Translations under genes and position numbers: made by a program
Notes under the pieces: generated by a model
Database searches by the model: none
The model's input: only the letters and a program-made list of their open reading frames with translations
What the model was told of the DNA's origin: nothing
Shown here: one piece after another, positions 40,051 to 58,842 of the stretch
Layout: every line of letters begins with the position of its first letter
Position numbering within the stretch: the stretch's first letter is position 1
Origin: Acidobacteriota bacterium
Lineage (GTDB): Bacteria; Acidobacteriota; UBA4820; DSQY01
Length of the DNA stretch: 59,490 nt
Reading direction: 5' to 3'
Assembly (NCBI GenBank): GCA_040752915.1
Contig: JBFMHB010000008.1
Coordinates: 1-59,490 of the forward strand

Positions 40051-40262
40051 CGAGTCTCCTTTTCCACTGGGGGGCGCCCGAATGCCTGCCGCCGGCCCCC
40101 CCCGGCGGCGGCTTCACCTTTTCAAATTCTGATCCCGGCGTCAAGGCGTGGGAAAGGGAAGAAATCGTCCGGTCCAGGGGTTATCTCATTGCACGTCGGT
40201 CAGTATGAATTGGCGAGGTCCGCATCAGTCTTGCTCGAGAAAGAGGAGGGGTGTCGAAAACC

Positions 40263-41666
40263 ATGGCCCAGTTCGCTCCCGACCCCGCGACCGATGCTCC
40301 CGAAAGCCTGCTCCTTGGACCCGAGTTCACCCGGACGCTGCTGGGGGCCATTCCTTGCGGCATGCTCCTCATGGACGAGGAAAGGCGCGTTCTCGCGGTC
40401 AACGACGTGCTCGAAAAGGCGCTGGGAGTTCCGGCGAACCGACTCCTTGGCATGAGAGGGGGCGGGGCGCTGGGGTGTGTGTACGCTCGCCGTCTCGAGT
40501 CGTGCGGAGATGCAGAGGCGTGCAGGTCTTGCGATGTTCTGAGACTCGCCGAAGTGGCGCTCCAGGAAGGGAGGACCCAGCGGACCCGGGCCCGACTTCA
40601 GGTGGTCCTCGGTGGAAAGGTCCAAGACCTGGAGCTTCACTTGAGCGCTTCTCCGTTCATCCACCGGAGCCGGAAATACGTCATGGTGCTGATCGAGGAC
40701 CTCTCCCGGCTGGTGCGATTGAAGCAGGCCCCCAGGGAAGAGGGCTTTCACGGGATGATCGGGAAGGACCCCCAAATGGAGGGCCTGTTCGAGGCCATCC
40801 GCGTGGTGGCGCGCCTTCCTGTTCCGGTGCTGGTGCACGGCGAAAGCGGCGTGGGAAAAGAACTTGTGGCGGTGGCCATCCACAAGGAGAGCCCGAGAGC
40901 CCTCCGGCACATCGTCCCCGTGAACTGCGGGGTGCTCACCGACGGCCTGCTTGAAAGCGAGCTGTTCGGGCACGTCCGGGGCGCCTTCACGGGAGCCATT
41001 CGGGACAAGAAGGGCCGCTTCGAACTGGCCGACGGCGGGACCATCTTCCTCGACGAAATCGGGGAACTCAGTCCGGCCATGCAAGTCAAGCTCTTGCGGG
41101 TCCTTCAGGATGGAAGCTTTGAGCGCGTGGGGGGGGAGCACACGACGCGCGTGGACGTCCGCGTCATCTGCGCCACCAACCGCAACTTGGAGCGGGAGGT
41201 CGCCCAGGGTCGCTTCCGGGCGGACCTGTACTACCGCCTCGCCGTGGTTCCCATCCAGGTGCCTCCCCTGCGCCACCGCCGGGAGGACATCCCGGTCCTC
41301 GCCCGACACTTGCTCGAGAGGATCTGCTCCGAGCACGGCCACCCGCCGGCCAGAATCTCGGCGGAGGCGCTGGATCGTCTGCAGGCCCACGACTGGCCGG
41401 GCAACGTGCGGGAGCTGGAAAACGCCCTGCATTTCGCGCTGGTTCAGTCCCGCGGGGCGGACCTTGAAGTCCGCCATCTGCCCGGTACCGTGAGAGGGCC
41501 CGCGGAGGTGGAACTCTTGCGCGGGGCGGTGCGGCGCAGAAGGCCGCTGGCCCGCCTGGCGGTTTCGGAGGCCCTGCTCTCGTGCGGTGGGAACAAGGTG
41601 CTGGCGGCTCGAAAGCTGGGAGTGAGCCGGGCCACACTCTATCGGTTTCTCGAACGCAACACCTAG
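40263..41666 (+). CDS. Sigma-54 activator with cysteine-rich PAS sensor
   Basis: A 467-aa enhancer-binding protein. A PAS domain (about residues 20-150) carries Cys 72, 81, 87 and 90 in a GC-x8-C-x5-C-x2-C pattern, suited to bind a metal or sense redox state; this is inference. The AAA+ domain has Walker A GESGVGKE, the sigma-54 loop GAFTGA and LFLDEIGE-type Walker B (IFLDEIGE). The C-terminal Fis HTH is LSCGGNKVLAARKLGVSRATLYRFL. It has no receiver, so it senses its signal directly. The ATG at 40263 is chosen over a GTG at 40251 because AGGAGG touches the latter. It lies upstream of the sigma-54 promoter of the multicopper-oxidase operon and is its most likely activator. Confidence 0.92.
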   Translation: MAQFAPDPATDAPESLLLGPEFTRTLLGAIPCGMLLMDEERRVLAVNDVLEKALGVPANRLLGMRGGGALGCVYARRLESCGDAEACRSCDVLRLAEVALQEGRTQRTRARLQVVLGGKVQDLELHLSASPFIHRSRKYVMVLIEDLSRLVRLKQAPREEGFHGMIGKDPQMEGLFEAIRVVARLPVPVLVHGESGVGKELVAVAIHKESPRALRHIVPVNCGVLTDGLLESELFGHVRGAFTGAIRDKKGRFELADGGTIFLDEIGELSPAMQVKLLRVLQDGSFERVGGEHTTRVDVRVICATNRNLEREVAQGRFRADLYYRLAVVPIQVPPLRHRREDIPVLARHLLERICSEHGHPPARISAEALDRLQAHDWPGNVRELENALHFALVQSRGADLEVRHLPGTVRGPAEVELLRGAVRRRRPLARLAVSEALLSCGGNKVLAARKLGVSRATLYRFLERNT

Positions 41667-41821: not shown

Positions 41822-41907
41822 GCCATCTGTACGGGCGACGTATCGGCCGTTGGAGCTGAAGATGCGAAGTTCTTGTTTTGCACCCCGTTACGAGGCGCCC
41901 TGATTAA

Positions 41908-41923
41908 TGGCAACTAGTTTGCT
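41908..41923 (+). promoter_or_regulatory. Sigma-54 promoter of the multicopper-oxidase operon
   Basis: TGGCAACTAGTTTGCT matches the sigma-54 consensus (TGGCACG-N4-TTGCW) with the invariant GG and GC at the correct 10-bp gap and a perfect -12 TTGCT. Transcription should start near 41934, 21 nt before the ATG of the first gene, with a GGGAGGG ribosome site in between. Confidence 0.8.
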
Positions 41924-41954: not shown

Positions 41955-42161
41955 ATGCGATCGGAGTGCAGGCAGCACGTGGAGGCCGTTCTGGAAGTGT
42001 CCCGCAGGCTTCTGGAGCTGGCCGACTGGGGCGGGCCCGAAGAAGGGGGCGACGCCTGCCTCGTGTTCGACGCCATCGCCCGAGACTGCGCCTACAAAAT
42101 CCGCAACGCCGCGGAGGCCTTCATGGCCCGCAGCGACGATTACCAAGTTGAAGCCAGCTAA
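41955..42161 (+). CDS. Small conserved-looking protein, first gene of sigma-54 operon
   Basis: A 68-aa protein without signal peptide. It has three cysteines (Cys 5, 35, 45) and the pattern RSECRQHVEAVLEVSRRLLELA...CLVFDAIARDCAYKIRNAAE, which I associate with short uncharacterised proteins found near multiheme cytochrome or anaerobic-metabolism genes. AGGGAGGG precedes the ATG. As the first gene after the sigma-54 promoter it may be regulatory or a thiol/metal carrier; that is inference. Confidence 0.7.
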   Translation: MRSECRQHVEAVLEVSRRLLELADWGGPEEGGDACLVFDAIARDCAYKIRNAAEAFMARSDDYQVEAS

Positions 42162-42231
42162 CGCGGCGGCCGCCGAGGATCCGCACGGACTCGCGGCGAT
42201 GGGGCTCAGCCGCAGGGATGGAGAGGTTGAC

Positions 42232-45200
42232 ATGAGCGACCGGCGAATCGGTTTCGAAGCGTTTCGGAAGGTGGCCTGCACGGTGTCCTCCCTTTGCCTG
42301 TTTCTGATCGGGGGGCTGGCCGCGTGGGCCCGTGCGCCGCTGACGATCGTGGTGAGGGACCCGGCGGGGAACAACGTGAGCGGGTTCCGCTACCTCATCG
42401 AGGAAGACACCACGGAGCATACGGTTCCGGGCCTGCCCGTGACGGACAGCATCGGGACGGTGGTGCACAAGAGCTACGCCCCCGTGGTGGCGAAGGGGAC
42501 CTCCATTTTCCACACGGTCTCCGTTCCCGGGCTTCCCGACGACATGCGGTTCGTCGTGTCCGTCCTTCCGGCCGCCGACTACAGCATCAGCGGCCAGCTC
42601 GTGGACATCGGCCAGAATACCGTCTACGTCACGGTGGAGCCCCTTCCGCTGGAAACGTCCCAGATCTTCCTGTTTTGTTTCGTAGATCACAACACGATCA
42701 ACAACGTGCCCGACGCCGGCGAGCCGGGCCTGGGGCACTTCAGCGTGGTTCTCGCCGACTACGCCGGCCCCGTGAGCGTGGACGCCTTCGGAAATCCCCT
42801 GGGGACCACCTATCAGTACAATCCGGACGGCACCCCCGTGCTGGACGTGGACGGAAACCCGGTGCCGGACCAGATCGGCACGGGGTCCGTCACGACCATC
42901 GGCGAGGACGAAGTCAACGATCCCCTCCTGAACCCGTACGGTCTCCAGGTCGGTGAGGCCCTCATCAAGTATCTCCCCCAGGGCAAGTACGGGGTCATCA
43001 TCATTCCCGAGGACGCCACCAACTGGATTCAGACGGCCACCATCGAAGGAACGCCCACCGTCGACGCCTGGGTGCGGGCGGGAGAGCCCCAGTTCTTCAC
43101 CGAAGGGTGGGGCCCCGGCTCCTGGCACTGCTTCTTCGGTTTCGTAAACCCGGACGCCACGGGCCCCGTGGAGCCCAAATTGCCCTGGCTGGCGACTCCT
43201 CCCGCCGGCACCGGTTCCCTGCACGGTTATCTCCGGTACAACCACTTCGGCGCGCCGCCCTCCAACCAGCAGTTCGCGGTGGGCGAGCCCGTCGGGGAGG
43301 CCTGGATCGGCCTGAACGACCCGGCCACCGGTCAGGGCCTGTATGCCGCCCCCTGCAACCCCGACACGGGCGAATTCTCGATCACGGGGATCCCGCCGGG
43401 AACCTATCAGCTGGTCTGGTGGGACATCCCCCTCGACGCGCTCTTCGGCTTCCAGTCCGTGGTCGTGCCCGCCGGAGGGGGAGGGACCGGAGAGGCCGTG
43501 GAGCTCGGGAACGTGCTCGCCTTCCGGTGGTTCGGCAACTACGAAGGAAGCGTCTTCTGGGACGACGGAGGCCCCACCCACATTCCCGGGCACATCGGAA
43601 ACGGCTTCCGGGATCCCGAAGAATTGGGCATCGACAACCAGGCGGTCCTCCTGCGCTTTCGCAACGGCATGATCTATCAAGCCCAGGCCACGGATGCCGT
43701 CGGCAACTTCCAGTTCTCCGAGGTCTTTCCCTTCTTCAAGTGGCTCGTCGCCGAGGTGGACTACACCCGCTACAAGCCAACAGGGGTGACGAACGTCGTG
43801 GACGCCGGAGGCGCCTTCGGTCCCCACCAGGGATGGGATTACCCCTCCTTCGACAAGCTGACGCCCAGGCCTCAGGTCGATCCGCCCAACTGGCCCTACG
43901 GTTCGGCTCCTTCCACGGTCCCCGTGAACAACCCGAACACGGGGAACAACCTCTCCACGACGGAAACCGGGCCCGTTCTCACCCAGGCCATCCAGCTTTT
44001 CCTGAACCAGTCCAACTACTCCGACTATGGAAAGGTTCTGTACGGACCCGGTGAAAACGGGGGCATCAGCGGCATCGTCTACTACGCAACCACCCGCGCG
44101 GAGAACGACCCCCGCTGGGCCGCCGGGGAAGACTGGGAGCCGGGAGTCCCGAGGGTTCAGTTGGCCCTCTACCTGGATGCCAACATCGACGCGGTCATCG
44201 ACGACTTGAACGGCAGCGGGGCCCCCGACCTGGCCGACGTGGACAATTACCCCTTCGGGTGGGCCGACGGGGGCACCCAGGGCAGCGAGGACGTGGACCG
44301 CCACCCGGCCGATCCCCTCTTCAACCCTGGGGACGCCGTCCAGATCGCCACCTCCGATTCCTGGGACGACAACATGCCCACGGGGTGCGGCCAGACGCTG
44401 CCCATCATCCACGGGAATCCTGCCCGGGAATGCTTCGACAACTACGGAACGTGGAACCAGATCCGCCCCGGCGTCTTCGACGGCGGATTCGCCTTCGGGG
44501 ATTACTTCCCCGCCGGCCTGGCCAACGCCCTTCCGGGCGACCAGCCGGTCCCCCTTCCGCGCGGAATGTACATCGTGGAAGCGGCCACCCCTCCGGGGTA
44601 CACCCTCCTGAAGGAAGAGGACAAGAACGTGGATTACGGGGACAGCTACGTTCCCCCGACGCAGGACCTTGTCCCCGCCATCTGCGTGGGAACCGCGGCC
44701 AATCTCCCGAGCTCCTTCGAGGGTCTCTCCATTCCGTACATCGTTCCCCCGGAGCTGGCGCTCTTCCCTGGAATCCCCGCCCCCTACGCGGGCACCGAAA
44801 GGCCCCTGTGCAACCTCAAGCAGGTCCGGCTCACCGACGCCTCCAACGCGCCCGTCAACTTCTTCGTCCTGACGGAAGTGCCCAAGGCGGCGCGGGCCGT
44901 GGGCTTCGTGAACAACGACCTCACGGCGGAATTCAACGCGGCGAGCCCGAACTTCGGGGAGAAATCGGCGCCCTCCTGGCTGCCCCTCTCCTTCCAGGAC
45001 TGGAACGGTGTGGAAATCGCCCGGGTTTACACGGACGAGTGGGGCGCCTACAACGCCATGCTCCCCTCCACCTTTACGGTCAACGCGCCCACTCCATCGG
45101 GCGTGGCGCCCCACATGGTCACCGTGGTCCTGAACCACCCCCTCATGCAGGATCCGGCTTTTCCGGGTGACCCCACGAAAAAGATCCTGGACCCCCACTG

Positions 45201-48114
45201 GGACCCCAACTTCGCGCAGGTCTCGTGGACCCTCCACTATTACCCCGGTTCGGTGACCTATCTGGACACCCCCATCGTCCCCATCGCGGCCATGGTCGGC
45301 TATCCCTATCGGAACCTCGATGTGGAAGCCCCGGCGGGAACGCCCGGCATCGCCTCGGTGAACGGGGACGCGCCCGGAGGAGGCCCCGTCGTCTGCGACA
45401 CGGGCGGGACCATCACGGTCGCCTCGAAGGGCCTCGTGAGCGTGCCCAACCCGCTCTACGATCCAAACCTGCCCGCCGGCCCCGGGAACGAGACCACGGT
45501 GCAGAGGGACTACGGGTTCGGACCCTACGACCCCGGCTTCAGCCTGATCACTTTGGGCGGGGTGCCCCTGACCGTCGTGAGCTGGACCGATTCGACCATT
45601 GAGGCGACGGTCCCGGCCTCTTCGACCACGGGGCAGCTCCTGGTCACTCGGGCCGACACGGGGCGAACCTCCACCACGGGCCTGACCTTGCACGTCATCG
45701 ACTGCGTGAACGACTGCGTTTTGCGCGTCCCCTCCCAGTACGCCACCATCCAGGCCGCCATCGACGCCGCCGCCGACGGGTGTCTCATCCTCGTGGCGCC
45801 CGGCGTGTACAACGAGAATCCCATCGTCTACAAGCCCGTGACGGTCCAGGGCTCGGGGATGGACAATACGATCCTCAACGCCCAGCCCCTTTCCGTGGAC
45901 GCGCTGACCGCCTGGCACGCCAAGGTGGTCTCCATCCTGGGGGCGGACCCCTTCGTCGCCACGGAGGCCCCGGGTTTCATGGTGTTCGGCAACGCGCCGG
46001 GTCATCCCTTCTCGGCCGGGCAGACGGCCCATATCGACGGATTCCAGGTGACGGGCGCCATCACCGGAGGCGGGGTCGCGATCGACACCCTGGCCCATTA
46101 CACCGAGATCAGCAACATGAAGATCCGCGGGAACCAGGGCATGTTCGCCGGGGGGATCTCCCTCGGCCGCAACGACCAGGTCACCAGCAACACGAACGTG
46201 TCCATCCACCACTGCGAGATCGCGAAGAACGGCGGCGTGGACGGAGCGGGCGGCATCGCCATTTTCACCGGACAGGACGGATACTCCATCACCGACAACC
46301 TCATCTCCGGCAACCTCTCCCGCTTCAACGGCGGCGGCATCCTCCACGAGGGGCTCAGCGACGGCGGCACCATCGCCCGCAACCGGATCACATTCAACGA
46401 GGTCTTTTCCGGCCTCCAGATCGGCGGCGAGGGCGGGGGCCTGTGGCTCGGTGGTCCCGGCGTGGGCGGCGCGCTCGGAACGGGCGCCGGTGACGTGACG
46501 GTGGACTCCAACCTCTTCCAGGGGAACATCGCCGGTGCGGGGAAGGGGGGCGCCATCCGCGTCATGGGCTTCAACGGGGCCGACGTGGAGGCCGCGCCGA
46601 CGACCCCCGGGTCCTGGTACCAGCTCCGGATTCACAACAACATCATCGCCAACAACGTGGCGGCCCACTCCGGCGCGGGGATCATCCTTCAGGACGCGGC
46701 CCGGGCGGACCTCACGAACAACACCATCGCCCACAACGACAGCACGGCCACGGCCATCACGGCCTTTGGCGCCGGGCAGACGGTCTCCACCCCCAGGGCA
46801 TCGGGCCTCGTGGCTGCCTACCACAGCCTGGCCCTGCGAAGCATCCCCGGCTTCACCCAGACCTATTCGAACCCGCTCTTGGAGGACTGCATCCTCTGGG
46901 AAAACCGGTCCTGGTACTACGACCCGACGGCCAATGCCGGTGCGGGGGGCCTGCTGGCCAACCCCGCCGGGCTTTACCAGGATCTCTTCGTGGAAGACGC
47001 TCCCTCCCCGGAGGTCCTGGATCCTCAGTACTGCGTCCTCACGAGCACCACGGGCTACGCCGCCACGAACACCTCCGGCGATCCCATGTTCGTCACGCCG
47101 TACTTCAATGCCCTGGCCGCCGCGGCGGTTCTCGACGAAGGCGGCACGCACATCTCCGTCCGCTTCGACCCCATCTATCCCTCCGCGGGGGACTACCACC
47201 TCTCCACCACCGCGTCCTCGGCCTTCAACCTGGGCCGCAGCTCCTCCTGGACCCCCGGGGTGGGCTACTCGGTTCCCGAACTGGCCCAGGACTTCGACGG
47301 GCAGGTCCGTCCCCGCTTCTTCTACCCCGATGCGGGAGCAGACGAATTGCATCCCGCCTTCCTCCCGCTGGCCAACCTCCAGGTTTCCCTCACGGCCTTC
47401 CCCGATCCCGTGGCCGTGGGCCAGCCCTTGACGCTGACCGTGACCGTCACGAACTCCGGCCCCAATGGCGCCGACGGTGTGGTGGCCGTCACCGAACTTC
47501 CCGGCGGGGCGGGCCTGATCCACGCCGCCTCCTCCAAGGGAACCCTCCGGATGGGTTCTGCGGACGGGATCCGCGGACCGCTCGCGCCCGGGGAATCCGT
47601 GGTGGCGGCCGACGTGGGCTCCCTGGCCCCCGGCGAGGTGGCGGTAGTGGTCCTTACGATCACCCCTTCGGCCCCCGGACCCGTGCCCACAACGAGCACC
47701 GTGGAAGGCGCCGTCCAGGAGGCGGACCCCGTGGACAACACCGCTTCCGCCGCGCCCGAGGCCATGCCGGATGCGGACGGCGACGCGGCCTACGACGCCA
47801 TCGACTGCCGGCCCGCCGACCCGTCGGTCTGGTCCGCACCGGGTGTGGCGAGGTTCCTCGCCCTGTCCGGTTCGGCCTCCACCGACTTCACCTGGAGCGC
47901 CCCTTCGGCGCCGGGATCCGTCGCCGTCACCTACGATCTCGTCCGGAGCCTCACCGCCTCTGACTTCTCATCCGCGGCGTGCGTGGCCTCCGCGCTCACC
48001 GCACCCGGTGCCACGATTTCCGAAAGCCCCGCCGCGGGTCAGGTCTTCTACTACGTCGTGAGGACGCGGAACCTCTGCGGACTCGCCCCCAACGTGGGAC
48101 AGGGCTGTCCGTGA
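42232..48114 (+). CDS. Giant secreted protein: SdrD-like, IPT and beta-helix domains
   Basis: A 1960-aa exported protein, predicted extracellular. The signal peptide spans about residues 14-34 (ending AAWARA). Residues about 40-1090 hold carboxypeptidase-regulatory/SdrD B-like beta-sandwiches (e.g. GSLHGYLRYNHFG, GEFSITGIPPGTYQLVWWD, ISGIVYYATTRAEND). An IPT/TIG-like domain lies at about 1098-1157, and a right-handed parallel beta-helix (DUF1565-like entry RVPSQYATIQAAIDAA) at 1165-1690. Next come a DUF11/CARDB-type domain (1713-1840), a MopE-like metal-binding motif (DADGDAAYDAIDCRPADPSVW) and a C-terminal fibronectin-like module. It is first among the secreted products of the operon and may be the scaffold for the cupredoxin proteins that follow. 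GGAGAGG fixes the start at 42232. Confidence 0.85.
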   Translation: MSDRRIGFEAFRKVACTVSSLCLFLIGGLAAWARAPLTIVVRDPAGNNVSGFRYLIEEDTTEHTVPGLPVTDSIGTVVHKSYAPVVAKGTSIFHTVSVPGLPDDMRFVVSVLPAADYSISGQLVDIGQNTVYVTVEPLPLETSQIFLFCFVDHNTINNVPDAGEPGLGHFSVVLADYAGPVSVDAFGNPLGTTYQYNPDGTPVLDVDGNPVPDQIGTGSVTTIGEDEVNDPLLNPYGLQVGEALIKYLPQGKYGVIIIPEDATNWIQTATIEGTPTVDAWVRAGEPQFFTEGWGPGSWHCFFGFVNPDATGPVEPKLPWLATPPAGTGSLHGYLRYNHFGAPPSNQQFAVGEPVGEAWIGLNDPATGQGLYAAPCNPDTGEFSITGIPPGTYQLVWWDIPLDALFGFQSVVVPAGGGGTGEAVELGNVLAFRWFGNYEGSVFWDDGGPTHIPGHIGNGFRDPEELGIDNQAVLLRFRNGMIYQAQATDAVGNFQFSEVFPFFKWLVAEVDYTRYKPTGVTNVVDAGGAFGPHQGWDYPSFDKLTPRPQVDPPNWPYGSAPSTVPVNNPNTGNNLSTTETGPVLTQAIQLFLNQSNYSDYGKVLYGPGENGGISGIVYYATTRAENDPRWAAGEDWEPGVPRVQLALYLDANIDAVIDDLNGSGAPDLADVDNYPFGWADGGTQGSEDVDRHPADPLFNPGDAVQIATSDSWDDNMPTGCGQTLPIIHGNPARECFDNYGTWNQIRPGVFDGGFAFGDYFPAGLANALPGDQPVPLPRGMYIVEAATPPGYTLLKEEDKNVDYGDSYVPPTQDLVPAICVGTAANLPSSFEGLSIPYIVPPELALFPGIPAPYAGTERPLCNLKQVRLTDASNAPVNFFVLTEVPKAARAVGFVNNDLTAEFNAASPNFGEKSAPSWLPLSFQDWNGVEIARVYTDEWGAYNAMLPSTFTVNAPTPSGVAPHMVTVVLNHPLMQDPAFPGDPTKKILDPHWDPNFAQVSWTLHYYPGSVTYLDTPIVPIAAMVGYPYRNLDVEAPAGTPGIASVNGDAPGGGPVVCDTGGTITVASKGLVSVPNPLYDPNLPAGPGNETTVQRDYGFGPYDPGFSLITLGGVPLTVVSWTDSTIEATVPASSTTGQLLVTRADTGRTSTTGLTLHVIDCVNDCVLRVPSQYATIQAAIDAAADGCLILVAPGVYNENPIVYKPVTVQGSGMDNTILNAQPLSVDALTAWHAKVVSILGADPFVATEAPGFMVFGNAPGHPFSAGQTAHIDGFQVTGAITGGGVAIDTLAHYTEISNMKIRGNQGMFAGGISLGRNDQVTSNTNVSIHHCEIAKNGGVDGAGGIAIFTGQDGYSITDNLISGNLSRFNGGGILHEGLSDGGTIARNRITFNEVFSGLQIGGEGGGLWLGGPGVGGALGTGAGDVTVDSNLFQGNIAGAGKGGAIRVMGFNGADVEAAPTTPGSWYQLRIHNNIIANNVAAHSGAGIILQDAARADLTNNTIAHNDSTATAITAFGAGQTVSTPRASGLVAAYHSLALRSIPGFTQTYSNPLLEDCILWENRSWYYDPTANAGAGGLLANPAGLYQDLFVEDAPSPEVLDPQYCVLTSTTGYAATNTSGDPMFVTPYFNALAAAAVLDEGGTHISVRFDPIYPSAGDYHLSTTASSAFNLGRSSSWTPGVGYSVPELAQDFDGQVRPRFFYPDAGADELHPAFLPLANLQVSLTAFPDPVAVGQPLTLTVTVTNSGPNGADGVVAVTELPGGAGLIHAASSKGTLRMGSADGIRGPLAPGESVVAADVGSLAPGEVAVVVLTITPSAPGPVPTTSTVEGAVQEADPVDNTASAAPEAMPDADGDAAYDAIDCRPADPSVWSAPGVARFLALSGSASTDFTWSAPSAPGSVAVTYDLVRSLTASDFSSAACVASALTAPGATISESPAAGQVFYYVVRTRNLCGLAPNVGQGCP

Positions 48115-48146
48115 GCGCAGACAAAGCGAGAAAGGGAGAGACCCCC

Positions 48147-49373
48147 ATGCGAGGAAGGAAGATCTGGCTGTCGGCCCTGGTCCTCGGGCTCCTGCTCCTG
48201 GCGGGGGCACAGGCGGCCAAGGCCCACGTCTTCGTGCAATGCCCCCCCGATACGGACGGGGTGGACACGGATGGAGACGGCATCGTCAACAACGACTACG
48301 TGTGCTACCACCTCTCCGGAGGGGACGGATACGTCCGGATGGCGGACGGGCTGGACATGTACGCCTTCGGCTTTTCCGACCTGACAGGCATCAACGATGA
48401 TTCGGCCCTCATCGTCGGGAGGCTCGCCGCGGAGACCCCCGCCCCGCCCCTCGTCTTCCGCGAAGGCCAGAAGGTCTTTCTGACCCTGACCAACACGGGG
48501 ATGTTCATGCGCCCCGACCTCTTCGATCCCCACAGCGTCCACTTCCACGGCTTCCCCAACGCCGCCGTGATTTTCGACGGCGAGCCCATGGCTTCCATCT
48601 CCATCAACATGAGCGAGTCCCTGACCTACTACTACAACCTGGTGGAGCCGGGCACCTTCATGTACCACTGCCACGTGGAAGCCACCGAGCACATGCAGAT
48701 GGGCATGCTGGGCATCCTGTACGTGCGGCCCAGGCAGGACATGCTGCCGGCCGGGACGACCTTCTCCAACGGGTTTGTCCACCAGGCGGGGTACAAGTAC
48801 GCCTACAACGACGAGGACGGCTCCACCTACTACGACGTGGATTTCCCCATCCAGGTGACCTCATTCGACCCCCGCTTCCACTGGTCCAGCGAAAACGTCC
48901 AGCCTCTGGACTTCGCGTACATGCACGACACGTACCCCATGATCAACGGCCGAGGGTATCCGGACACCGTGAACACGGGAAACATCCTCAATAACGCAGG
49001 CAGGCCTTCCCAGAAAGTGAACGCCCTGGTGACCGCCACCCAGGGCCAGAAGGTCCTGCTCCGGATCTCCAGCCTGGCCACCGGGGAGTTCTACACGGTC
49101 GGCATCGCCGGAATCCCCATGACGGTCGTCGGCCAGGGGGCCAGGCTTCTGCGCGGCCCCGATCCGGACGGCCCGGGGCCCCTTCTCGGCAAGAACCTCT
49201 ACTACACGACCCAGTCCTTGACCCTCGGTGGGGGCCAATCCGTGGACGTGATCCTGGACACCGCCGGGGTTCCCGCCGGGACCTACTGCCTGTACGGGAC
49301 CAACCTGAACCAGCTGAGCAACGACAACGAGGACTTCGGCGGAATGATGACCGAGATCCGGATCACGCCGTGA
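48147..49373 (+). CDS. Multicopper oxidase-like protein 1 (intact type-1 site)
   Basis: A 408-aa exported cupredoxin protein; signal peptide residues 1-26. A DTDGVDTDGDG calcium-type loop follows. The N-terminal cupredoxin domain carries HSVHFHG (His 129, 132, 134) and the classic HCHVEATEHMQMGM (His 174, Cys 175, His 176, His 182, Met 187), that is a complete type-1 copper set plus type-2/3 histidines. These motifs normally close the last domain of a multicopper oxidase, but here they lie in the first of two domains; the C-terminal domain (to LYGTNLNQLSNDNEDFGGMMTEI) has no copper motif. It is followed by two related genes in the same operon. Confidence 0.87.
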   Translation: MRGRKIWLSALVLGLLLLAGAQAAKAHVFVQCPPDTDGVDTDGDGIVNNDYVCYHLSGGDGYVRMADGLDMYAFGFSDLTGINDDSALIVGRLAAETPAPPLVFREGQKVFLTLTNTGMFMRPDLFDPHSVHFHGFPNAAVIFDGEPMASISINMSESLTYYYNLVEPGTFMYHCHVEATEHMQMGMLGILYVRPRQDMLPAGTTFSNGFVHQAGYKYAYNDEDGSTYYDVDFPIQVTSFDPRFHWSSENVQPLDFAYMHDTYPMINGRGYPDTVNTGNILNNAGRPSQKVNALVTATQGQKVLLRISSLATGEFYTVGIAGIPMTVVGQGARLLRGPDPDGPGPLLGKNLYYTTQSLTLGGGQSVDVILDTAGVPAGTYCLYGTNLNQLSNDNEDFGGMMTEIRITP

Positions 49374-49416
49374 GGCTTGGACGGGCGTCGGATCCCTCGG
49401 AAGGGAGCGAAGGACC

Positions 49417-50967
49417 ATGATGAACACGATTACCCATGGAATGCCGAAGCGATCGGGCTTCCGGGCGCTCCGGTGGGCGGCGGCCGTGGCGGCGGTGTGC
49501 GGGTACGCCGCCGCCACCCAGGCGGCCATCCCCGGACTCACGGGGCCGAACTTCAGTCTGGCCACCCGGGATGGCTACATCAGCACGGCGGACGGGGGCA
49601 GCGTCTACATGTGGGGGTTCGCGCAAAGCGGGGGCGTCATGCAGTTCCCCGGGCCGACCCTCATCGTGGAGCAGGGACAGCTGGTCACCGTGACCCTCGA
49701 GAACACGCTGACGGTGCCCACCTCCATCCTCTTTCCGGGGCAGGAAGGCGTGGAGGCCGTCGGGGGCACCCCGGGCCTACTGACCCAGGAGGCCGCCGCT
49801 TCGGGAGGGACGGTCACCTACCGATTCGTGGCTTCCCGGCCGGGGACCTACACCTATTACAGCGGGACCAGCCCCGAACTCCAGGTGGAAATGGGGCTCG
49901 TGGGCGCGCTCATCGTCCGTCCCCAAGGCCAGCCCAACTGGGCCTATGGCCACCCCGACACGGCCTTCGACCACGAGTACCTTTTCGTCCTGAGCGACAT
50001 GGATGTGGACGTTCACAACCGGGTCGAGTTCGGGCAAGCCGTGGACAACACCAAATGGTGGCCCGTCTACTGGTTCATCAATGGGCGGACCGGCCCCGAC
50101 ACCATGGCGGCCGACGGGGTTCCGTGGCTTCCTCACCAGCCCTACTCGTGCCTGCCTCGCATGCACCCGGAGGACGTGGTTCTCCTTCGGGTCATCGGGA
50201 CGGGCCACGACGCCCACCCCTACCACACCCATGGAAACAACCACCTCCTGATCGCCCGGAACGCGCGCCTGTTGGAAAGCGCACCCGGCGCGGGTCCGGA
50301 TCTCGCCGAATCGAACTTCACCATGTCGGTCCACCCCGGAGAAACCTACGACGCCCTGTTCACCTGGACGGGATACGGACTGGGTTGGGACGTGTACGGC
50401 CACACCCTGGGCGTGATCAACCCCGACGCCAACAAGGCGCTTCAAAGCCATGAACTCTACGCCCAATCCGCCCTTGCGGCGCCGTTGGCCTCCGGCGACA
50501 CCACGATGACCCTCCCCGCCGGGGAAGGCCGCAAATACCCCTACGGATTCCGGGCCATCCTCTGGGATCCGGCCTTTCCCACGCCGGACCACGATCCGAA
50601 CCGTGAGGTCGTCCTCCTGAGCCACCCGGGGACCTCCGACACCTTCACGATCCTGAGGGCCCAGGAGGGCACGGCGGCTCAGAACTGGGCGGCGGGCACG
50701 ATCCTCGCCCACACGGATCACGGCGTTCCGGTTCCGGTGGTCCTGCCTGCCCAGCAATCCCTTACCTTCGGCATGTTCTACAGCGGCAGCCCGAACCTCG
50801 GCAGCGCCGGCGCCCTTCCACCCGGAGACGGGGGGTTCAACGCAAACGGCGGCCTCTATTTCATGTGGCACTCCCACAACGAGAGGGAGATCGTGAACTT
50901 CGACCTCTTCCCGGGAGGCATGCTCACCATGGCCGTGGTGGAGCCCCCCGGCGTGGCCATCCCTTGA
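49417..50967 (+). CDS. Multicopper oxidase-like protein 2 (partial ligand set)
   Basis: A 516-aa exported protein with signal peptide (about residues 17-37). The first cupredoxin domain keeps the fold (FPGPTLIVEQGQLVTVTLEN, YTYYSGTSPELQVEMGLVGALIV), but the usual HWHG and HSH histidines are replaced. The second part keeps HPYHTHGNNH (His 267, 270, 272, 276) and a C-terminal WHSHNERE (His 485, 487), where the type-1 cysteine of HCH is Ser. It therefore has trinuclear-type histidines but no blue-copper cysteine. It could act only with partners supplying the missing ligands, or may not be an oxidase. Confidence 0.85.
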   Translation: MMNTITHGMPKRSGFRALRWAAAVAAVCGYAAATQAAIPGLTGPNFSLATRDGYISTADGGSVYMWGFAQSGGVMQFPGPTLIVEQGQLVTVTLENTLTVPTSILFPGQEGVEAVGGTPGLLTQEAAASGGTVTYRFVASRPGTYTYYSGTSPELQVEMGLVGALIVRPQGQPNWAYGHPDTAFDHEYLFVLSDMDVDVHNRVEFGQAVDNTKWWPVYWFINGRTGPDTMAADGVPWLPHQPYSCLPRMHPEDVVLLRVIGTGHDAHPYHTHGNNHLLIARNARLLESAPGAGPDLAESNFTMSVHPGETYDALFTWTGYGLGWDVYGHTLGVINPDANKALQSHELYAQSALAAPLASGDTTMTLPAGEGRKYPYGFRAILWDPAFPTPDHDPNREVVLLSHPGTSDTFTILRAQEGTAAQNWAAGTILAHTDHGVPVPVVLPAQQSLTFGMFYSGSPNLGSAGALPPGDGGFNANGGLYFMWHSHNEREIVNFDLFPGGMLTMAVVEPPGVAIP

Positions 50968-50998
50968 GCGGGCGAGAGAAAGGGAGGAGATGAACCCA

Positions 50999-52273
50999 AT
51001 GAAGAGAAGGACCCTTTCCCGAACGCTGTCCTGGGCCGCTCTGTTCGCGCTGGCCCTTGTTAGCCAGGCCGCGCGCGCGGAGACCTATTACCTGCGAGCC
51101 GCCCAGACCACCCTGAGTCTTCCCGGAGGGGCCACGACCCCCATGTGGGGCTTCGCCCTGGACAGCGGAGCCGCGGTGGACGATGGAACCGTCACCGTTC
51201 CCGGCCCGAGGCTCACGGTGTCCCCGGGCCAGTCCCTGACGGTCGTCTTGAAAAACCGCCTGCCCGCCTCCATCCCGGGTGTGACCACCGATGTCTCCAT
51301 CCTCATCCCCGGGGTTGTTCCGGACGCCGACCTCAATCCCGTAAGAAACGCGGGAGGCCGCATCACGTCCTTCACGCAAGTGACCACCCCCGGCAACAAT
51401 GGAACCTACACGTGGAGCAACCTGCCCCCCGGCACCTACCTCTACCACAGCGGCACGCACCCCCAGGTCCAGGTCCAGATGGGGCTCTACGGCGCCGTGA
51501 CAAAGGACAGCGCCGCCGGTGAGGCCTACCCTGGCGTCTTCTATGACCAGGATCTCCTCCTTCTCTTCAGCGAAGTGGATCTGACGCTCCACGCCTCCGT
51601 GGACGGAGGCACCTACGGAACGGCGCCGGCTCCCACGAGCACCATGTACTACAAGCCCTCGTATTTCTTGATCAATGGCAAACCCTTTCCGGAAGTCCCT
51701 CCCGTTCCGGCCTTCTCGGCGGGGGATCAGGTACTCGTCCGGCTGGTCAACGCCGGTATCGAGACCCACGTTCCGCTCTTCCAGGGCCTTTACGTGCGCC
51801 AGGTCGCGGAAACCGGCAACAAGTTGACCTATCCTCGCGATACCTACAGCGTGGTCCTGGGAGCGGGAACGACGGCGGATGCCCTGCTCCTTGGTCCCTC
51901 GAGCCAGCTGGGGGGGTGCACCTTCCCGGTTTTCGACCGGGCCATGAACCTGACCAACGCCGCGGCTACGGGGGGCGGGATGCTCACCTACTTGAGCCTG
52001 ACGGCTGGAGGCCCGCCTCCTCCGCGAGTCGGCGACACCCTCATGGCCGTACAGGGCCCCGGCACGGTCACGCTCACCTGGACGGACATTCCGGAGGCCA
52101 ACTTCTACAGGGTCTACTCCAGCACCACACCGGGACCGGCTGATTTTACAAACCTCCAAGCCGTTGTCTCGTCCGGGGCCGTGGGTGCCACTCTTTCGCT
52201 TCCGCCCGAGCCGCTGGTATTCTTCCAGGTAACGGGATGCGTGACGTGCGGGGCGGAAGGCCCCCAAAAGTAA
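50999..52273 (+). CDS. Multicopper oxidase-like protein 3 (mostly degenerate) with Fn3-like tail
   Basis: A 424-aa exported protein; signal peptide MKRRTLSRTLSWAALFALAL...ARA. The N-terminal cupredoxin domain is clearly homologous to protein 2 (PMWGFALDSGAAVDDGTVTVPGP, TYLYHSGTHPQVQVQMGLYGAV) and retains one His pair (His 150, 154). The second cupredoxin region lacks the HxH and HCH motifs (FPVFDRAMNL...GGGML at the corresponding place). Residues about 340-424 form a fibronectin-type-III-like module related to the C-terminus of the giant protein. The second ATG (50999) fits the AGGGAGGAG site better than that at 50990. Confidence 0.83.
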   Translation: MKRRTLSRTLSWAALFALALVSQAARAETYYLRAAQTTLSLPGGATTPMWGFALDSGAAVDDGTVTVPGPRLTVSPGQSLTVVLKNRLPASIPGVTTDVSILIPGVVPDADLNPVRNAGGRITSFTQVTTPGNNGTYTWSNLPPGTYLYHSGTHPQVQVQMGLYGAVTKDSAAGEAYPGVFYDQDLLLLFSEVDLTLHASVDGGTYGTAPAPTSTMYYKPSYFLINGKPFPEVPPVPAFSAGDQVLVRLVNAGIETHVPLFQGLYVRQVAETGNKLTYPRDTYSVVLGAGTTADALLLGPSSQLGGCTFPVFDRAMNLTNAAATGGGMLTYLSLTAGGPPPPRVGDTLMAVQGPGTVTLTWTDIPEANFYRVYSSTTPGPADFTNLQAVVSSGAVGATLSLPPEPLVFFQVTGCVTCGAEGPQK

Positions 52274-52288
52274 TCCCGACGGAGACCC

Positions 52289-52768
52289 ATGAACCCTACA
52301 CCCAGAGCTCTTGACCTGGACCGCGGGCCGGAGGAAGTCGGAATCTTCCGGCCCGCCGCGTATTTGCTCTTCCTCCTCGCCCTTGCGGCGGCCCTCGCCT
52401 GCGGTGTCCGGAAGCCCCCCGCCGAAGCGCAAGACTACCGGGCACTCCTTGGGATCGAGGTGGAATCCCTGCGCCTGAGCGCCTCGGACATGGTCGTGGA
52501 CATGCGGTACCGGGTCCTCGACGCCGCCAAGGCCCAGGCCGTGCACAAGAAGGGCCTCACCATTTCCCTCATCGATGAGGCCACCCACTCCGTGCTCAAG
52601 GTCCCCAGCCCCGCCTACGTCGGGCCTCTCCGCCAGCGATCCGACAGGATCCAGGAGGGGAAGGTCTACTTCATGCTTTTCGCCAACGGCGGCCGCGTCG
52701 TGAAGTCCGGCAACCGCGTGACGCTGGTCCTCGGGGACGTTCGGATTCCGGGCCTGACCGTGGAGTGA
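52289..52768 (+). CDS. Putative lipoprotein, last gene of the copper operon
   Basis: A 159-aa protein of unknown function. A hydrophobic segment (residues 21-39) ends at a cysteine (ALAC-G), a possible lipobox, though 20 polar residues precede it. The mature part is beta-rich (YRALLGIEVESLRLSASDMVVDMRYRVLDA, GRVVKSGNRVTLVLGDVRI). It starts 15 bp after protein 3 and is followed by a strong terminator. Confidence 0.72.
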   Translation: MNPTPRALDLDRGPEEVGIFRPAAYLLFLLALAAALACGVRKPPAEAQDYRALLGIEVESLRLSASDMVVDMRYRVLDAAKAQAVHKKGLTISLIDEATHSVLKVPSPAYVGPLRQRSDRIQEGKVYFMLFANGGRVVKSGNRVTLVLGDVRIPGLTVE

Positions 52769-52796
52769 CGGAAAAGGGGAGCCTTCGAAAACGAGG

Positions 52797-52826
52797 GGGG
52801 CGGCCACCGGCCGCCCCTGTTTCGTT
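52797..52826. terminator. Terminator closing the copper operon
   Basis: GGGGCGGCC (52797-52805) and GGCCGCCCC (52809-52817) form a 9-bp stem with a 3-nt loop, followed by TGTTTCGTT. It lies in the 79-bp gap between convergent genes and could serve both. Confidence 0.75.
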
Positions 52827-53977: not shown

Positions 53978-55765
53978 TCAGGGCTTCTCGTCGGAGGAGG
54001 GGGCGGAAGACGGGGTGGTGTTCCACCAGGTCCCGCCCGGACCGTAGTAGTTGACGAGGTGGTCTGCCAGCTTCACCTCGTCGGCCGTACCGAAGAGGGA
54101 GTTGGTCCAGTCGCTGATGACGGGCGTGTCCTGCCAGATCCGGACGTTGCCCCGGTGGCACGCGGTGGCGCAGGCGTTGGGGTTGCCCGTCGCGGTGGCC
54201 GAGATCCGCGAGGTCTGGAAGGCGATGGTGTCCTCGGGCCGTGCCGGGTGGAAGCTGTGGTTCACCTGCCGGGCCATGTGGCACGAAACGCAGTTGCCCA
54301 GGCCCATATCGCGGTCTTCCATGTACGGGTGGTGGGAATGTTCCTCGGTCTTGGAGCGGATGAGCTCGAAATTCGCGTCGTAGTCCTTGATCATCTGCTT
54401 GGTCATGCCGGCGAAGTCGCCGTAACCCGCGTGGCAGGACAGGCAGAAGCTCGGGTTGTGGACGCTGGCGGGGATGTCCGTGACCCCGCTTCGGGTGATC
54501 TTGTCGCGGACCTGGGCCGGGTTGCTCGTCTCCGCATGGCTGTTGTGGCAGTCGTTGCACGCAATGCCGTGGCTGCCGGTGTAGTGCGCGCTGCTCATGT
54601 ACGAATCGATGCGCTCGTACTGGTAGTTGATACCGTCCGGCCACTTGACCGCCTTGGAAAGCTGGTAACTGGAAAGGGCGGCGGGCGGGTTGCTCATGAA
54701 GTAGCCCTTATTGTTCACCTCGTCGAAGGGGAATCCCCAGACCTTGTTCGGCGTGGAGGTGACCTGCACGTGGCACTGGAGGCAGGTGGCGCTCCTCTGC
54801 TGGTTGTTGGCGATGTCCTTGGGGTTCACGATCTTGGACGGGTCGCCGCCGGCGAGGATGTGGGCCGATCCGGGACCGTGGCAGCTCTCGCAACCGATGT
54901 TGGCGAGATCGGGAAGTCCGTCACCATCCAGGTCGGGGTAGTTCGGGCTGTTCTCTGGAACCAAGGAAGCCGGGAAGGGGTTCACGACGTATTCCCCGGC
55001 GGCCGTCACCCTGGCCACCCGGACTCCCGTGATGTGGCACCCCGAGCAGTTCTTCAGGTAGTTCTGTCCCTGAAGGGGAACCAGTGCGGCGCTGGTGAGG
55101 CCTGGAGCGTACTTGGGGGTGCTCCCGGTGTACCAGTTCGACAGGTTGCTCGAATAAGCCGACCCGGACCAGGAGAAGGGTCCGAAGTAGATGGCGCTGC
55201 TAAAACCCGTGGGGCTGTCGCTCACGGGGATGCGGACCATGTACCGCTGTCCGTTCGTGGCGGACATCCCGGCCCACGTGGCCACCACCTGGAGCTGGAG
55301 TCCTCCGGGACCGAGCTGGATCCAGTAGGTGTCGTTGGCGGCGTTGTAGGAAAGGATGGGGGCATTGGGTTTGGCGGAATCCAAAGCCGAGGAGATCGCG
55401 TTGAAATCGAGCCCCTGCATGAAATCGTCCATGCCGTTCTTGTCGTAGTCGGCGAGGATGCCCTCCCCCGGCTGGAGGGAGTACATGCCCATGGGCTTGC
55501 GGAGGGCGTGAGAGTGGTTGGTGTGGCGCCACTCCACCGAATCCCCGTAGGATCCGTGACACGCCAGACAGAACTCCGAGCCCACCATGGTGCCCGCCTG
55601 GAGCTGGGCCTTCGTGTAGTACCGAAGGAGGGTCTTCTCGAGGCTCCCATCCCGCTGGGGGGGGACCTGAACGGGACCCGACGCGCCCTTGGCCCGAGAG
55701 CCGGCCAGAACGGCCACCGCGGAAGCGGCCACGACGACAGCGATCCAAATGCGGATGTGCTTCAT
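53978..55765 (-). CDS. Secreted octaheme c-type cytochrome with one CX3CH site
   Basis: A 595-aa exported multiheme protein; signal peptide residues 1-29. Seven CXXCH sites start at Cys 66, 240, 292, 328, 403, 441 and 492. An eighth, unusual site at Cys 532-His 537 has three residues between cysteines (CATACH). Between hemes 1 and 2 there is a 170-residue non-heme beta domain. DYDKNGMDDF and DLDGDGLPDL look like calcium loops. I cannot assign it to a named octaheme enzyme (sulfite, hydroxylamine or tetrathionate types). AAGGAGG precedes the ATG at 55765, and a sigma-54 promoter lies about 230 bp upstream. Confidence 0.9.
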   Translation of the reverse strand: MKHIRIWIAVVVAASAVAVLAGSRAKGASGPVQVPPQRDGSLEKTLLRYYTKAQLQAGTMVGSEFCLACHGSYGDSVEWRHTNHSHALRKPMGMYSLQPGEGILADYDKNGMDDFMQGLDFNAISSALDSAKPNAPILSYNAANDTYWIQLGPGGLQLQVVATWAGMSATNGQRYMVRIPVSDSPTGFSSAIYFGPFSWSGSAYSSNLSNWYTGSTPKYAPGLTSAALVPLQGQNYLKNCSGCHITGVRVARVTAAGEYVVNPFPASLVPENSPNYPDLDGDGLPDLANIGCESCHGPGSAHILAGGDPSKIVNPKDIANNQQRSATCLQCHVQVTSTPNKVWGFPFDEVNNKGYFMSNPPAALSSYQLSKAVKWPDGINYQYERIDSYMSSAHYTGSHGIACNDCHNSHAETSNPAQVRDKITRSGVTDIPASVHNPSFCLSCHAGYGDFAGMTKQMIKDYDANFELIRSKTEEHSHHPYMEDRDMGLGNCVSCHMARQVNHSFHPARPEDTIAFQTSRISATATGNPNACATACHRGNVRIWQDTPVISDWTNSLFGTADEVKLADHLVNYYGPGGTWWNTTPSSAPSSDEKP

Positions 55766-55855
55766 GCAACCCTCCTTACGCTCTAGAAAACCCTGCCCTT
55801 CACCGGGTGAGGCGGTCCGGCCGGCGGTCCTGCCCCCGGTCACCTTCAACGCCTA

Positions 55856-56128: not shown

Positions 56129-56977
56129 CTATTCGTCGAACAGCACCGCGCTTCGGTTCGAGCCGTGAACCGCCGTGTGGCAGTTCAGGCAGTTCCGATA
56201 CCGAGGGCGTGCCAGGTTGTGAAAGGAGGGGACGCGGGTGTGGCACTCCAGACAAAGGTCTGCGGCTTGGCGGCGAAGGAGGAGCCGGGGGTTCGCGGAC
56301 CCGTGGGGGGTGTGGCAGGAAAGACAGGCGGAGAGGCGCTGGGGCGGATGCGGAAAGACGAAGGGTCCGGCCTTCTCCGAATGGCAATCGAGGCAGACGC
56401 CTCCGTCCTGACCCTGGGTCAGGCGTCCCCGTGCCGACAGCCCGTGGACGTCGTGGCAAGCCGTGCAGTCCATAGCCCCGGGACCCTCTCGGTGAGCGTA
56501 CGGGAGCCGGAAGGCCGCCGCCTCGGCCCGGTGGCAGGAGGCGCACAATTCCCTGGGCGAGGCGGAGAGGAGGGGCTCGGCGGCCGCTGGTTTCATGTGT
56601 CCTGCGGCGTGGCAGTCCGAGCAGGCGATGCCCGTCCTCTCGTGGCCGGGTGTCGCGAGGGCTACGGACCCCAGCCGGTCCCCGTGGCAGGTCAGGCAGG
56701 CGGACGGACCGGGAACCCTGCGAACGTTCTCGGCGGAAGGTTCTTCGAGGTGGGCGGGCGTGGGACGGTGGCAGGCGGCGCAGGCCGAGGCCAGGACTTC
56801 CGGAGAGCGCGCCGCCATGGCGGCGCCGTGGGCCGTCCCCGCAAAGGCCTGGGTGACTTCTTCATGACAGGCGGCGCAGTCCTCCAGGGAGGGCGCTTTC
56901 TCCTGGGCCGCGGAGAATCTCGCCGCCAGGACGGCGGCCACCAGTCCGATCAGCCAGGCGAAACGAAGGGCCTTCAT
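56129..56977 (-). CDS. Decaheme c-type cytochrome, MtrA/DmsE family
   Basis: A 282-aa exported cytochrome with ten CXXCH motifs (Cys 34, 66, 94, 119, 145, 171, 195, 218, 242, 263) spread evenly over the protein; signal peptide residues 1-24. Length, heme number and the ending ECHTRVPSFHN...NCLNCHTAVHGSN fit MtrA/DmsE/PioA-type cytochromes that sit inside an outer-membrane barrel. The ATG overlaps the stop of the barrel gene by 1 bp (TGATG). It would pass electrons across the outer membrane with that barrel. Confidence 0.93.
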   Translation of the reverse strand: MKALRFAWLIGLVAAVLAARFSAAQEKAPSLEDCAACHEEVTQAFAGTAHGAAMAARSPEVLASACAACHRPTPAHLEEPSAENVRRVPGPSACLTCHGDRLGSVALATPGHERTGIACSDCHAAGHMKPAAAEPLLSASPRELCASCHRAEAAAFRLPYAHREGPGAMDCTACHDVHGLSARGRLTQGQDGGVCLDCHSEKAGPFVFPHPPQRLSACLSCHTPHGSANPRLLLRRQAADLCLECHTRVPSFHNLARPRYRNCLNCHTAVHGSNRSAVLFDE

Positions 56978-58842
56978 CAGAACCTCCACCCGAAGACGAT
57001 GCCGTACCGAGTAACCTGGAAATCATCCTGAGAACTCCGGTCCTCATCGTACTCGCGCCGCTGAGCGAACACCGAAACGCGCGTGCCCTTGGGGCCTTGG
57101 ACGGTGGCGCGCGCGTCGCCGATCCACGACGAGGACGGCCAGGTGTGCCCCGAATCCTTCACGCGGAGGATGGAGCCGTCCAGGGAGAGCCTGCCGACGG
57201 TAAAGTAGCCGCGAAGACCGACGGTCCAAAGGCCCAGGTCGTAGATCGAAAGGTCGGCCGCGCGGTCGGGCAGGACAATGTCGGTCCGAGAGCGGAGTCG
57301 GTTGCGATCCACTTCCAGAGCCACCCCTCCCCGGCCCTTGGGGTCGTCCCAGGCCACCGAGGCCCCGAAAGCGTCGCTCCGACCGTCGAGTCCGCTTTGA
57401 GAGGCGGGGGCATCGGTCCGTTCGAAGCGTCCGTGGAGGGAGAAGGACCATCCGCTGTCGAGCCTGGACCGCAGGCGCAGGGTGAGGCGGTCCACCGTTT
57501 CGGGGTCGACCCTCAAGACGTACCGCTCGAAGGTGCCTCGCTCGTATTCGCCGCTCAGGGTCAGCCGTCGGCCGGCGCGCCAGGAAGCCCCCAGGCGGTA
57601 TCCCGATGAATCCCGGTCCGCCGAGCGAAGGCCGCCGTCGGTCGTGCGCCTCCAATCCACGGCTCTGCTTCCGCCGAAAACCGCCCCCCAGGCTCCGAAC
57701 CGACGTCCTTCATAGGCGGCCTCCAGGGACGCGGAGCGATCCGTCACGTCGAAGAACCCCCGCTCGTCCACGGGAACCGAAAAGTCCAGGCCGGGGATTC
57801 CGGGAAAGCCCACGTGAAGGAGCGACCGTCCGACCAGGTCCGAATCGGACTGGGACTTCCGGTAAGCCCCCCGAAGGCGAAGGGACCAGGCGTCGGTCAG
57901 CCGGTAGGCGGCCCGTAGGTCGCCCGCGAGGGTGTCCTGGGAAGCCGACCCCACGAGCTCGTCGAGGTAGGCGATCTGGCCCGTGGAGCCGCCGGCGATG
58001 TCGAAGGTCCGCCAGGTTGAGCCGGCCGCGTCCAGATCCGAACGACTGTACAGGAAGGTCCCCGCCACGTCCCACCGATCATTGCGGTAGAAGGCGCCGA
58101 GCCGGGAAGTGGGAACGTCGATCTCGTCCTTGCGGGAGGTCTCCAGCCGGGAGAGGAGGTCGGGGTCCGTGCCCGAAAGATCCCGCCCGCCCAGAGGGCG
58201 CCACCGGTTCTCCCGCTCGAAGGCGCCCAGACTCTGCTCGAAAAAGAGGCGCACGGGAAGGGTCCGGGTCTCCACGCGCAGGGTGACTTCCCGGTAGGAT
58301 TCATCGAGGTCCACCCGCATCGGATAGAGCTCGTTGAGTCCGTACAAAACCCGGTCCACCTGCCCGTCCCGCTTCGAGTGGCGTAGCCCCAGCGCGATCC
58401 GGGCTGCATTCCAGCCGTCGTAGACCGCCTCGGCGCTCCATCGCTCGATCGTCCACCGGTCCGCCCGATGGTCCTCGGGCGGCTCCATGAGGGAAAAGAC
58501 CGAGGCGCGACCGTCGTATCCCAGGTTGAATCGCCACGTGCGGGCCGGGGCAAAGACAAGCCTCGCATGGTGGTCCGGCTCCGGGTCACCCAGGCTCCAG
58601 GCCTTCAGGGAGAAGCGGGGCGCGGCCCCGGGAGCGGGGCGCCATTCAAGAAGGAGGTTCTCCAGGAAAGCTCCCTCTCCCTGGTTGTACTGGGTTGAAA
58701 AGCTCGAGAGGCTGCCCCCCTCGTTGAGCCACGCGTGGCCCGCCGCCACATCGCCCGAGAACCCCTGGGCGGCCACCCGCGAAGCCCCCAGCAGGAGGGC
58801 GGCCAGGCCCAAGCCAACGCCAAGACGGTCTTTTTTGCCCAC
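56977..58842 (-). CDS. Outer-membrane beta-barrel, MtrB/PioB family
   Basis: A 621-aa exported barrel. Signal peptide residues about 1-25 (LGLAALLLGASRVAAQ). The rest is a long series of amphipathic strands with alternating aromatic/polar residues (e.g. ARTWRFNLGYDGRASVF, WSLRLRGAYRKSQSD, RLTLSGEYERGTFERY), ending in a C-terminal Phe (YGIVFGWRF) as required for outer-membrane insertion. The GTG at 58842 is fixed by AAGGAG six bases upstream; the frame is open far beyond but without a better start. It is the sheath of the decaheme cytochrome encoded next. It lacks the N-terminal CxxC pair of Shewanella MtrB. Confidence 0.9.
   Translation of the reverse strand: MGKKDRLGVGLGLAALLLGASRVAAQGFSGDVAAGHAWLNEGGSLSSFSTQYNQGEGAFLENLLLEWRPAPGAAPRFSLKAWSLGDPEPDHHARLVFAPARTWRFNLGYDGRASVFSLMEPPEDHRADRWTIERWSAEAVYDGWNAARIALGLRHSKRDGQVDRVLYGLNELYPMRVDLDESYREVTLRVETRTLPVRLFFEQSLGAFERENRWRPLGGRDLSGTDPDLLSRLETSRKDEIDVPTSRLGAFYRNDRWDVAGTFLYSRSDLDAAGSTWRTFDIAGGSTGQIAYLDELVGSASQDTLAGDLRAAYRLTDAWSLRLRGAYRKSQSDSDLVGRSLLHVGFPGIPGLDFSVPVDERGFFDVTDRSASLEAAYEGRRFGAWGAVFGGSRAVDWRRTTDGGLRSADRDSSGYRLGASWRAGRRLTLSGEYERGTFERYVLRVDPETVDRLTLRLRSRLDSGWSFSLHGRFERTDAPASQSGLDGRSDAFGASVAWDDPKGRGGVALEVDRNRLRSRTDIVLPDRAADLSIYDLGLWTVGLRGYFTVGRLSLDGSILRVKDSGHTWPSSSWIGDARATVQGPKGTRVSVFAQRREYDEDRSSQDDFQVTRYGIVFGWRF

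Follow-up and report, generated by a model that had tools for sequence, protein, structure and literature searches.

The window analyzed here, meaning the whole 59,490-nucleotide stretch of DNA from an Acidobacteriota bacterium, holds six genes at positions 41955-52768 between a sigma-54-like site and an intrinsic terminator, with the gene for a sigma-54-dependent activator just upstream:

40251-41666, forward strand: sigma-54-dependent activator gene (Pfam Sigma54_activat, 1.9e-68; HTH_8; weak PAS)
41907-41923, forward strand: sigma-54-like promoter ATGGCAACTAGTTTGCT, score 36/40
41955-42161, forward strand: g1, a Cys-containing small protein of 68 aa
42232-48114, forward strand: scaffold, an exported protein of 1960 aa with SdrD_B-like, parallel beta-helix and DUF11 regions
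48147-49373, forward strand: P1, a two-domain cupredoxin matching Pfam Cu-oxidase families
49417-50967, forward strand: P2, a two-domain cupredoxin
50990-52273, forward strand: P3, a two-domain cupredoxin without copper ligands, matching Pfam Cu-oxidase_3
52289-52768, forward strand: g6, a small protein of 159 aa with a lipobox-like LAAALAC
52796-52818, forward strand: intrinsic terminator, a stem of 10 pairs, 9 of them G-C, with a T-rich tail after it

Each of the six genes is preceded by a purine-rich Shine-Dalgarno-like stretch, and the six-gene operon described in the initial annotation, running from a sigma-54 promoter to a terminator, is borne out by the presence of all of its genes and both elements. 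The score of the sigma-54-like site was matched or exceeded by 0.4% of mononucleotide shuffles, and a comparable site lies near the operon start in the relative L048, one of three Acidobacteria MAG contigs among the relatives (L048, L049 and L050; JAKAKG010000228, JAFGBY010000049 and JAGOJY010000019, respectively). The upstream activator, which combines a weakly matched PAS domain with a Fis-type HTH, is the probable regulator of the operon. L048 has a homologue of g1 at the start of its operon (53% identity), and L059 has one upstream of P1 (50% identity); a homologue of g6, a probable lipoprotein judging from its lipobox-like motif, follows P3 in most loci. The larger proteins have signal-like N-termini, as judged by eye, and these, taken with the surface-protein domains of the scaffold, suggest that their complex is exported and probably sits at the cell surface.

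P1, P2 and P3 each match multicopper-oxidase Pfam models in two regions, some of them below cut-off, and none of the three reaches a curated single-enzyme model at its cut-off. The ligands for a type-1 (T1) copper and a trinuclear copper center (TNC) are divided between P1 and P2, as listed here with P1 residue numbers that refer to the ORF starting at 47979:

48531-48551, forward strand: P1 HSVHFHG, with T1 His185 and TNC His188 and His190; 100% in 91 aligned P1 sequences
48666-48707, forward strand: P1 HCHVEATEHMQMGM, with TNC His230 and His232 and T1 Cys231, His238 and Met243
50215-50235, forward strand: P2 HPYHTHG, with TNC His270 and His272, and His267 at the T1-His position
50869-50877, forward strand: P2 HSH, with TNC His485 and His487, and Ser at the T1-Cys position

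Domain 1 of P1 carries a full T1 set (H185, C231, H238 and M243, all invariant) together with half of the TNC; domain 1 of P2 has lost its ligands and domain 2 of P2 carries the other TNC half; P3 has no copper ligands, and its ligand columns are lost in the relatives examined. The ligands of HCHVEATEHMQMGM are likewise 100% conserved in the 91 aligned P1 sequences, as are H267, H270 and H272 in 89 aligned P2 sequences, while H485 and H487 are conserved in 96% of these 89 rows, some of which are cut short; the HSH motif is found in every P2 that is not interrupted by a contig end. The motifs first reported for these proteins (HSVHFHG and HCHVEATEHMQMGM in P1, HPYHTHG and WHSHNERE in P2) are exact in the sequence, and the third protein, said to have almost no copper motifs, has none of them.

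Highly conserved histidines also lie outside the canonical ligand motifs, at P2 H435 (98% conserved) and P1 H301, and possibly belong to another metal site or a structural site. A beta-rich insertion is found between strands of the second cupredoxin domain of P2 (residues ~347-433; 50455-50715) and is shorter or absent in many relatives. Copper nitrite reductases have a T2 site with a single His next to the T1 Cys, and no HCH; the trinuclear pattern of P1, HxHG plus HCH, rules out its assignment to this group.

For comparison we used 12 single-chain two-domain multicopper oxidases (2dMCOs) from the same phylum, placed in a multiple alignment with 15 P1 and 15 P2 sequences and with P3 sequences. 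All 12 controls have both TNC halves in one chain. The domain-1 TNC columns are His in every control (12/12) and every P1 (15/15); three of these four columns are lost in every row of P2 and P3, with the first His of HCH kept in some. Conversely, His fills the domain-2 HxH columns in 12/12 controls and 15/15 P2 sequences, whereas P1 and P3 never have it there. In P2 the insertion throws the HSH motif out of register in this alignment; the motif was assigned from a predicted strand and from a profile alignment, in a low-scoring segment, with the domain-2 HDH of 3g5w; the controls carry their own HxH in the second half of domain 2, where P2 has HSH. What survives among the six cupredoxin domains is therefore one domain-1 half and one domain-2 half, in adjacent genes.

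The best PDB match of both the P1 and the P2 profile is 3g5w, in which HTIHWHG..YHCH aligns with P1 and HAIHTHG..MIHDH aligns with P2. Single-chain AlphaFold models of P1 (pLDDT 89.9) and P2 (pLDDT 83.1) find 2zwn and 3g5w as their best solved fold matches over approximately 285-360 columns. Both structures, a metagenome laccase (2zwn) and the blue copper oxidase of Nitrosomonas europaea (3g5w), are type C 2dMCOs, the class with T1 copper in the N-terminal domain; in 2dMCOs adjacent protomers share the TNC, one contributing its domain 1 and the other its domain 2 (PMC13151041). P1 and P2 share with this class the two cupredoxin domains per chain, the TNC half-sets in domains 1 and 2 and, for P1, a T1 copper site in domain 1 with none in domain 2. 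The two trinuclear half-sets, which share a polypeptide in type C enzymes, are here on different ones, the domain-1 half in P1 and the domain-2 half in P2. An unrooted tree with 13 single-chain 2dMCOs recovers P1, P2 and P3 as separate clades, each with 100% support; P2 groups with P3 as its sister, and a single branch divides all three from the controls. This topology would fit an ancient triplication with complementary ligand loss, followed by spread of the whole set.

The initial annotation had suggested a genome search for the same gene order, and had held that homologous operons with a full ligand set in each protein would speak against a divided site. We examined operons from genomes of the same phylum and 80 loci out of 403 confirmed matches from a GTDB-wide scan; most of these relatives are MAGs, a few contigs of which are possibly mis-binned, and a scan of viral contigs gave no match. 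The same gene order surrounds around 90 P1 genes from many phyla, P1-P2-P3 follow one another identically in all loci, and no operon with a full ligand set in each protein was found among them. Both P1 motifs are present in 90/90 loci and both P2 motifs in 84/84 copies long enough to judge; the six exceptions are four short pieces at contig edges, one copy with a frameshift or stop and one with an N gap, and in the latter two HSH is present just beyond the interruption. No P3 with the ligands occurs in these roughly 90 loci. Recurrence of gene order and ligand division on this scale takes the arrangement far beyond chance. The source labels include Acidobacteria, Desulfobulbaceae, Desulfuromonadales, Planctomycetes, Nitrospirae, Myxococcales, Bdellovibrionales, Verrucomicrobia, Hydrogenedentes, Kiritimatiellae and Omnitrophota, and several proteobacteria such as Thiobacillus, Sulfuricella, Methylocaldum, Amphritea and Thiohalomonas.

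The commonest architecture is scaffold-P1-P2-P3-g6; some loci have a scaffold-P1 fusion, and another group has P1, P2 and a P3 fused to the scaffold. Nearly all loci have a scaffold homologue that adjoins P1 or P3 or is fused to one of them, and the natural fusions indicate that the parts belong together. The fused P3-scaffold form is found, with the ligand split unchanged, in Paraburkholderia, where the operon's proteins are annotated as hypothetical in the record examined, and on the megaplasmid of Cupriavidus metallidurans CH34. On the latter (L142, 9906-25462), two LolA-like genes and one for cytochrome c come after the fused operon, in a region for which the plasmid table lists no genes.

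Downstream of the operon, and convergent with it, lie three genes on the opposite strand:

53978-55849, reverse strand: multiheme c-type cytochrome with seven CxxCH and one CxxxCH, outside the operon
56129-56989, reverse strand: decaheme MtrA/DmsE-type cytochrome with ten CxxCH
56977-59490, reverse strand: probable MtrB/PioB-like outer-membrane porin, truncated where the contig ends

The decaheme product matches TIGR03508 (5.4e-50, just under the curated cut-off) and chain A of PDB 6r2q (2.2e-28), and the porin product gives weak matches to MtrB_PioB (0.003) and the GSU2204 family (3.1e-8); together the three genes may encode a porin-cytochrome conduit. Such an MtrAB-like set fits electron exchange with outside minerals, yet it is suggestive only, because a multiheme cytochrome is within reach in just 10/90 loci, which rules these proteins out as a conserved neighbor of the operon. 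Very large multiheme cytochromes with 23-39 CxxCH motifs were observed near the operon in four relatives (L053 3464-5623; L077 3-2639; L078 3-2753; L079 2-1909). Commoner neighbors are an S8 peptidase (39 loci, mostly downstream), a sigma-54 activator (37 homologous loci, usually upstream and in the same orientation), SCO1/SenC (18 loci) and a c-type cytochrome that also carries a binding-protein domain. Neither an S8 subtilase next to the operon nor SCO1/SenC was seen in the window; the single SenC gene of the host genome lies on another contig beside a COX1 gene. The S8 subtilase of one relative (L051, 4276-6066) carries a MopE-type metal-binding motif.

Taken together, the ligand pattern, the predicted folds and the analogy with type C 2dMCOs make it probable that the operon encodes a heteromeric copper oxidase in which P1 and P2 share a trinuclear site. 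We propose that the paralogues P1, P2 and P3 together take the place of the identical subunits in a type C 2dMCO homotrimer. Domain 1 of P1 would supply the T1 copper site and four TNC histidines (188/190/230/232) and domain 2 of P2 the remaining four (270/272/485/487), the copper sites of P1 domain 2, P2 domain 1 and both P3 domains having been lost. In the simplest assembly the six cupredoxin domains of P1, P2 and P3 would form a ring in which one interface of three is active; as the other P1 and P2 domains and both P3 domains lack sites, the ring would hold one T1 copper and one TNC, placed where P1 meets P2. Electrons would enter at the T1 copper and reach the TNC by way of the Cys231-His230/His232 link, and the TNC would reduce O2. 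The exported complex would be tied to the giant surface protein. We infer the assembly, stoichiometry, copper content and activity of P1-P2-P3, as well as the geometry of the shared site, which is taken from the 2dMCO literature; the complex could also consist of P1 and P2 only, or P3 could act elsewhere. The earlier suggestion that the active center forms at subunit interfaces is strongly supported by the sequence pattern, in which P1 domain 1 and P2 domain 2 are type C halves that all copies long enough to judge have kept. Its companion, that proteins 2 and 3 became structural, seems to apply to P3, which looks structural, and not to P2. Use of O2 is consistent with the heme-copper and bd oxidase genes of the host genome (3.07 Mb, 98% complete), in which no other Cu-oxidase_3 protein was found.

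As to what such an oxidase would act on, we tentatively prefer metals or minerals, with extracellular Fe(II), another metal or a mineral-linked donor as the source of electrons. A widespread heterotrimeric oxidase with its site divided over two subunits, a dead third subunit as spacer, a tie to the scaffold and a role in extracellular metal or mineral oxidation is a possible full description, which we advance with caution. Instead of acting on metals, the oxidase might build or cross-link the giant surface protein through tyrosine or phenol coupling, a use that is also compatible with a shared copper site. The scaffold gene lies in the same operon and is fused to P1 or P3 in some genomes, and an S8 peptidase gene, mostly downstream in the 39 loci that have it nearby, would suit surface-protein maturation. 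We nevertheless consider this use rather unlikely, since a probable relative, from Sideroxydans, shows induction on magnetite (PMC12016527) and the neighbors include the sigma-54 activator and, less often, a gene for a c-type cytochrome.

The shared site itself has competitors. P1 and P2 might bind copper separately, P1 as a T1 electron carrier or a partial-site homotrimer and P2 as a mononuclear copper protein, with no shared trinuclear center. The shared complex is itself an inference, and the conserved H435 of P2 leaves room for a site of its own; against this, the eight histidines fall into two complementary 2dMCO half-sets that are kept across phyla in adjacent genes, and proteins acting alone would have no need for both HxH pairs each, so that we regard separate binding as improbable. 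That P1 and P2 are inactive remnants in a purely structural, adhesive operon, as the ligand loss in P3 might suggest, is very improbable given that their ligand residues are fully conserved over many phyla.

Two-domain multicopper oxidases assemble as homotrimers, and the usual explanation for six-domain enzymes is that 2dMCOs became fused into single chains. If the shared P1-P2 site is real, it represents another evolutionary route, in which a trinuclear copper center was split over two genes through duplication and complementary loss. The gene set spans sulfate reducers, sulfur oxidizers, methanotrophs and a Nitrospira, and CH34, a laboratory strain that can be cultured, carries it too. The operon is a specific candidate for extracellular oxidation based on copper.

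A type C 2dMCO is the product of one gene with both halves, and its homotrimer has three active sites; in the operon each half is on a different protein, and a third paralogue lacks both. As far as the open-access literature shows, this apparent split of the ligands over two proteins is new relative to described 2dMCOs. Ceruloplasmin and other six-domain oxidases have the architecture proposed here, six cupredoxin domains arranged in a ring that has just one trinuclear center; ceruloplasmin has as many as three T1 sites in its one chain, whereas we propose three chains and one T1 site. The MnxEFG manganese oxidase of Bacillus is, like the proposed complex, a multi-subunit copper oxidase, in which MnxG alone has the full multicopper set and MnxE/F are small, unrelated proteins. 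The initial annotation knew of no described enzyme with this layout, and for biochemically described enzymes in the open-access literature this stands; a related cluster, Slit_1812-1818 of Sideroxydans lithotrophicus ES-1, has been reported, with the ligand split unremarked (PMC12016527). Three cupredoxin proteins of this cluster rise on magnetite, two with typical multicopper-oxidase motifs and a larger third without, and similar clusters were noted in Paraburkholderia and Ralstonia (PMC12016527). The largest protein, which lacks copper motifs, has adhesin-like domains, and by its published description the cluster resembles the fused-form loci in composition and order. It is likely a relative of the operon described here, from which it and the Burkholderiales clusters differ in their accessory genes and in having P3 and the scaffold as one giant protein; the Burkholderiales clusters (Paraburkholderia, CH34) read P1-P2-(P3 fused to scaffold), with the ligands split as they are here.
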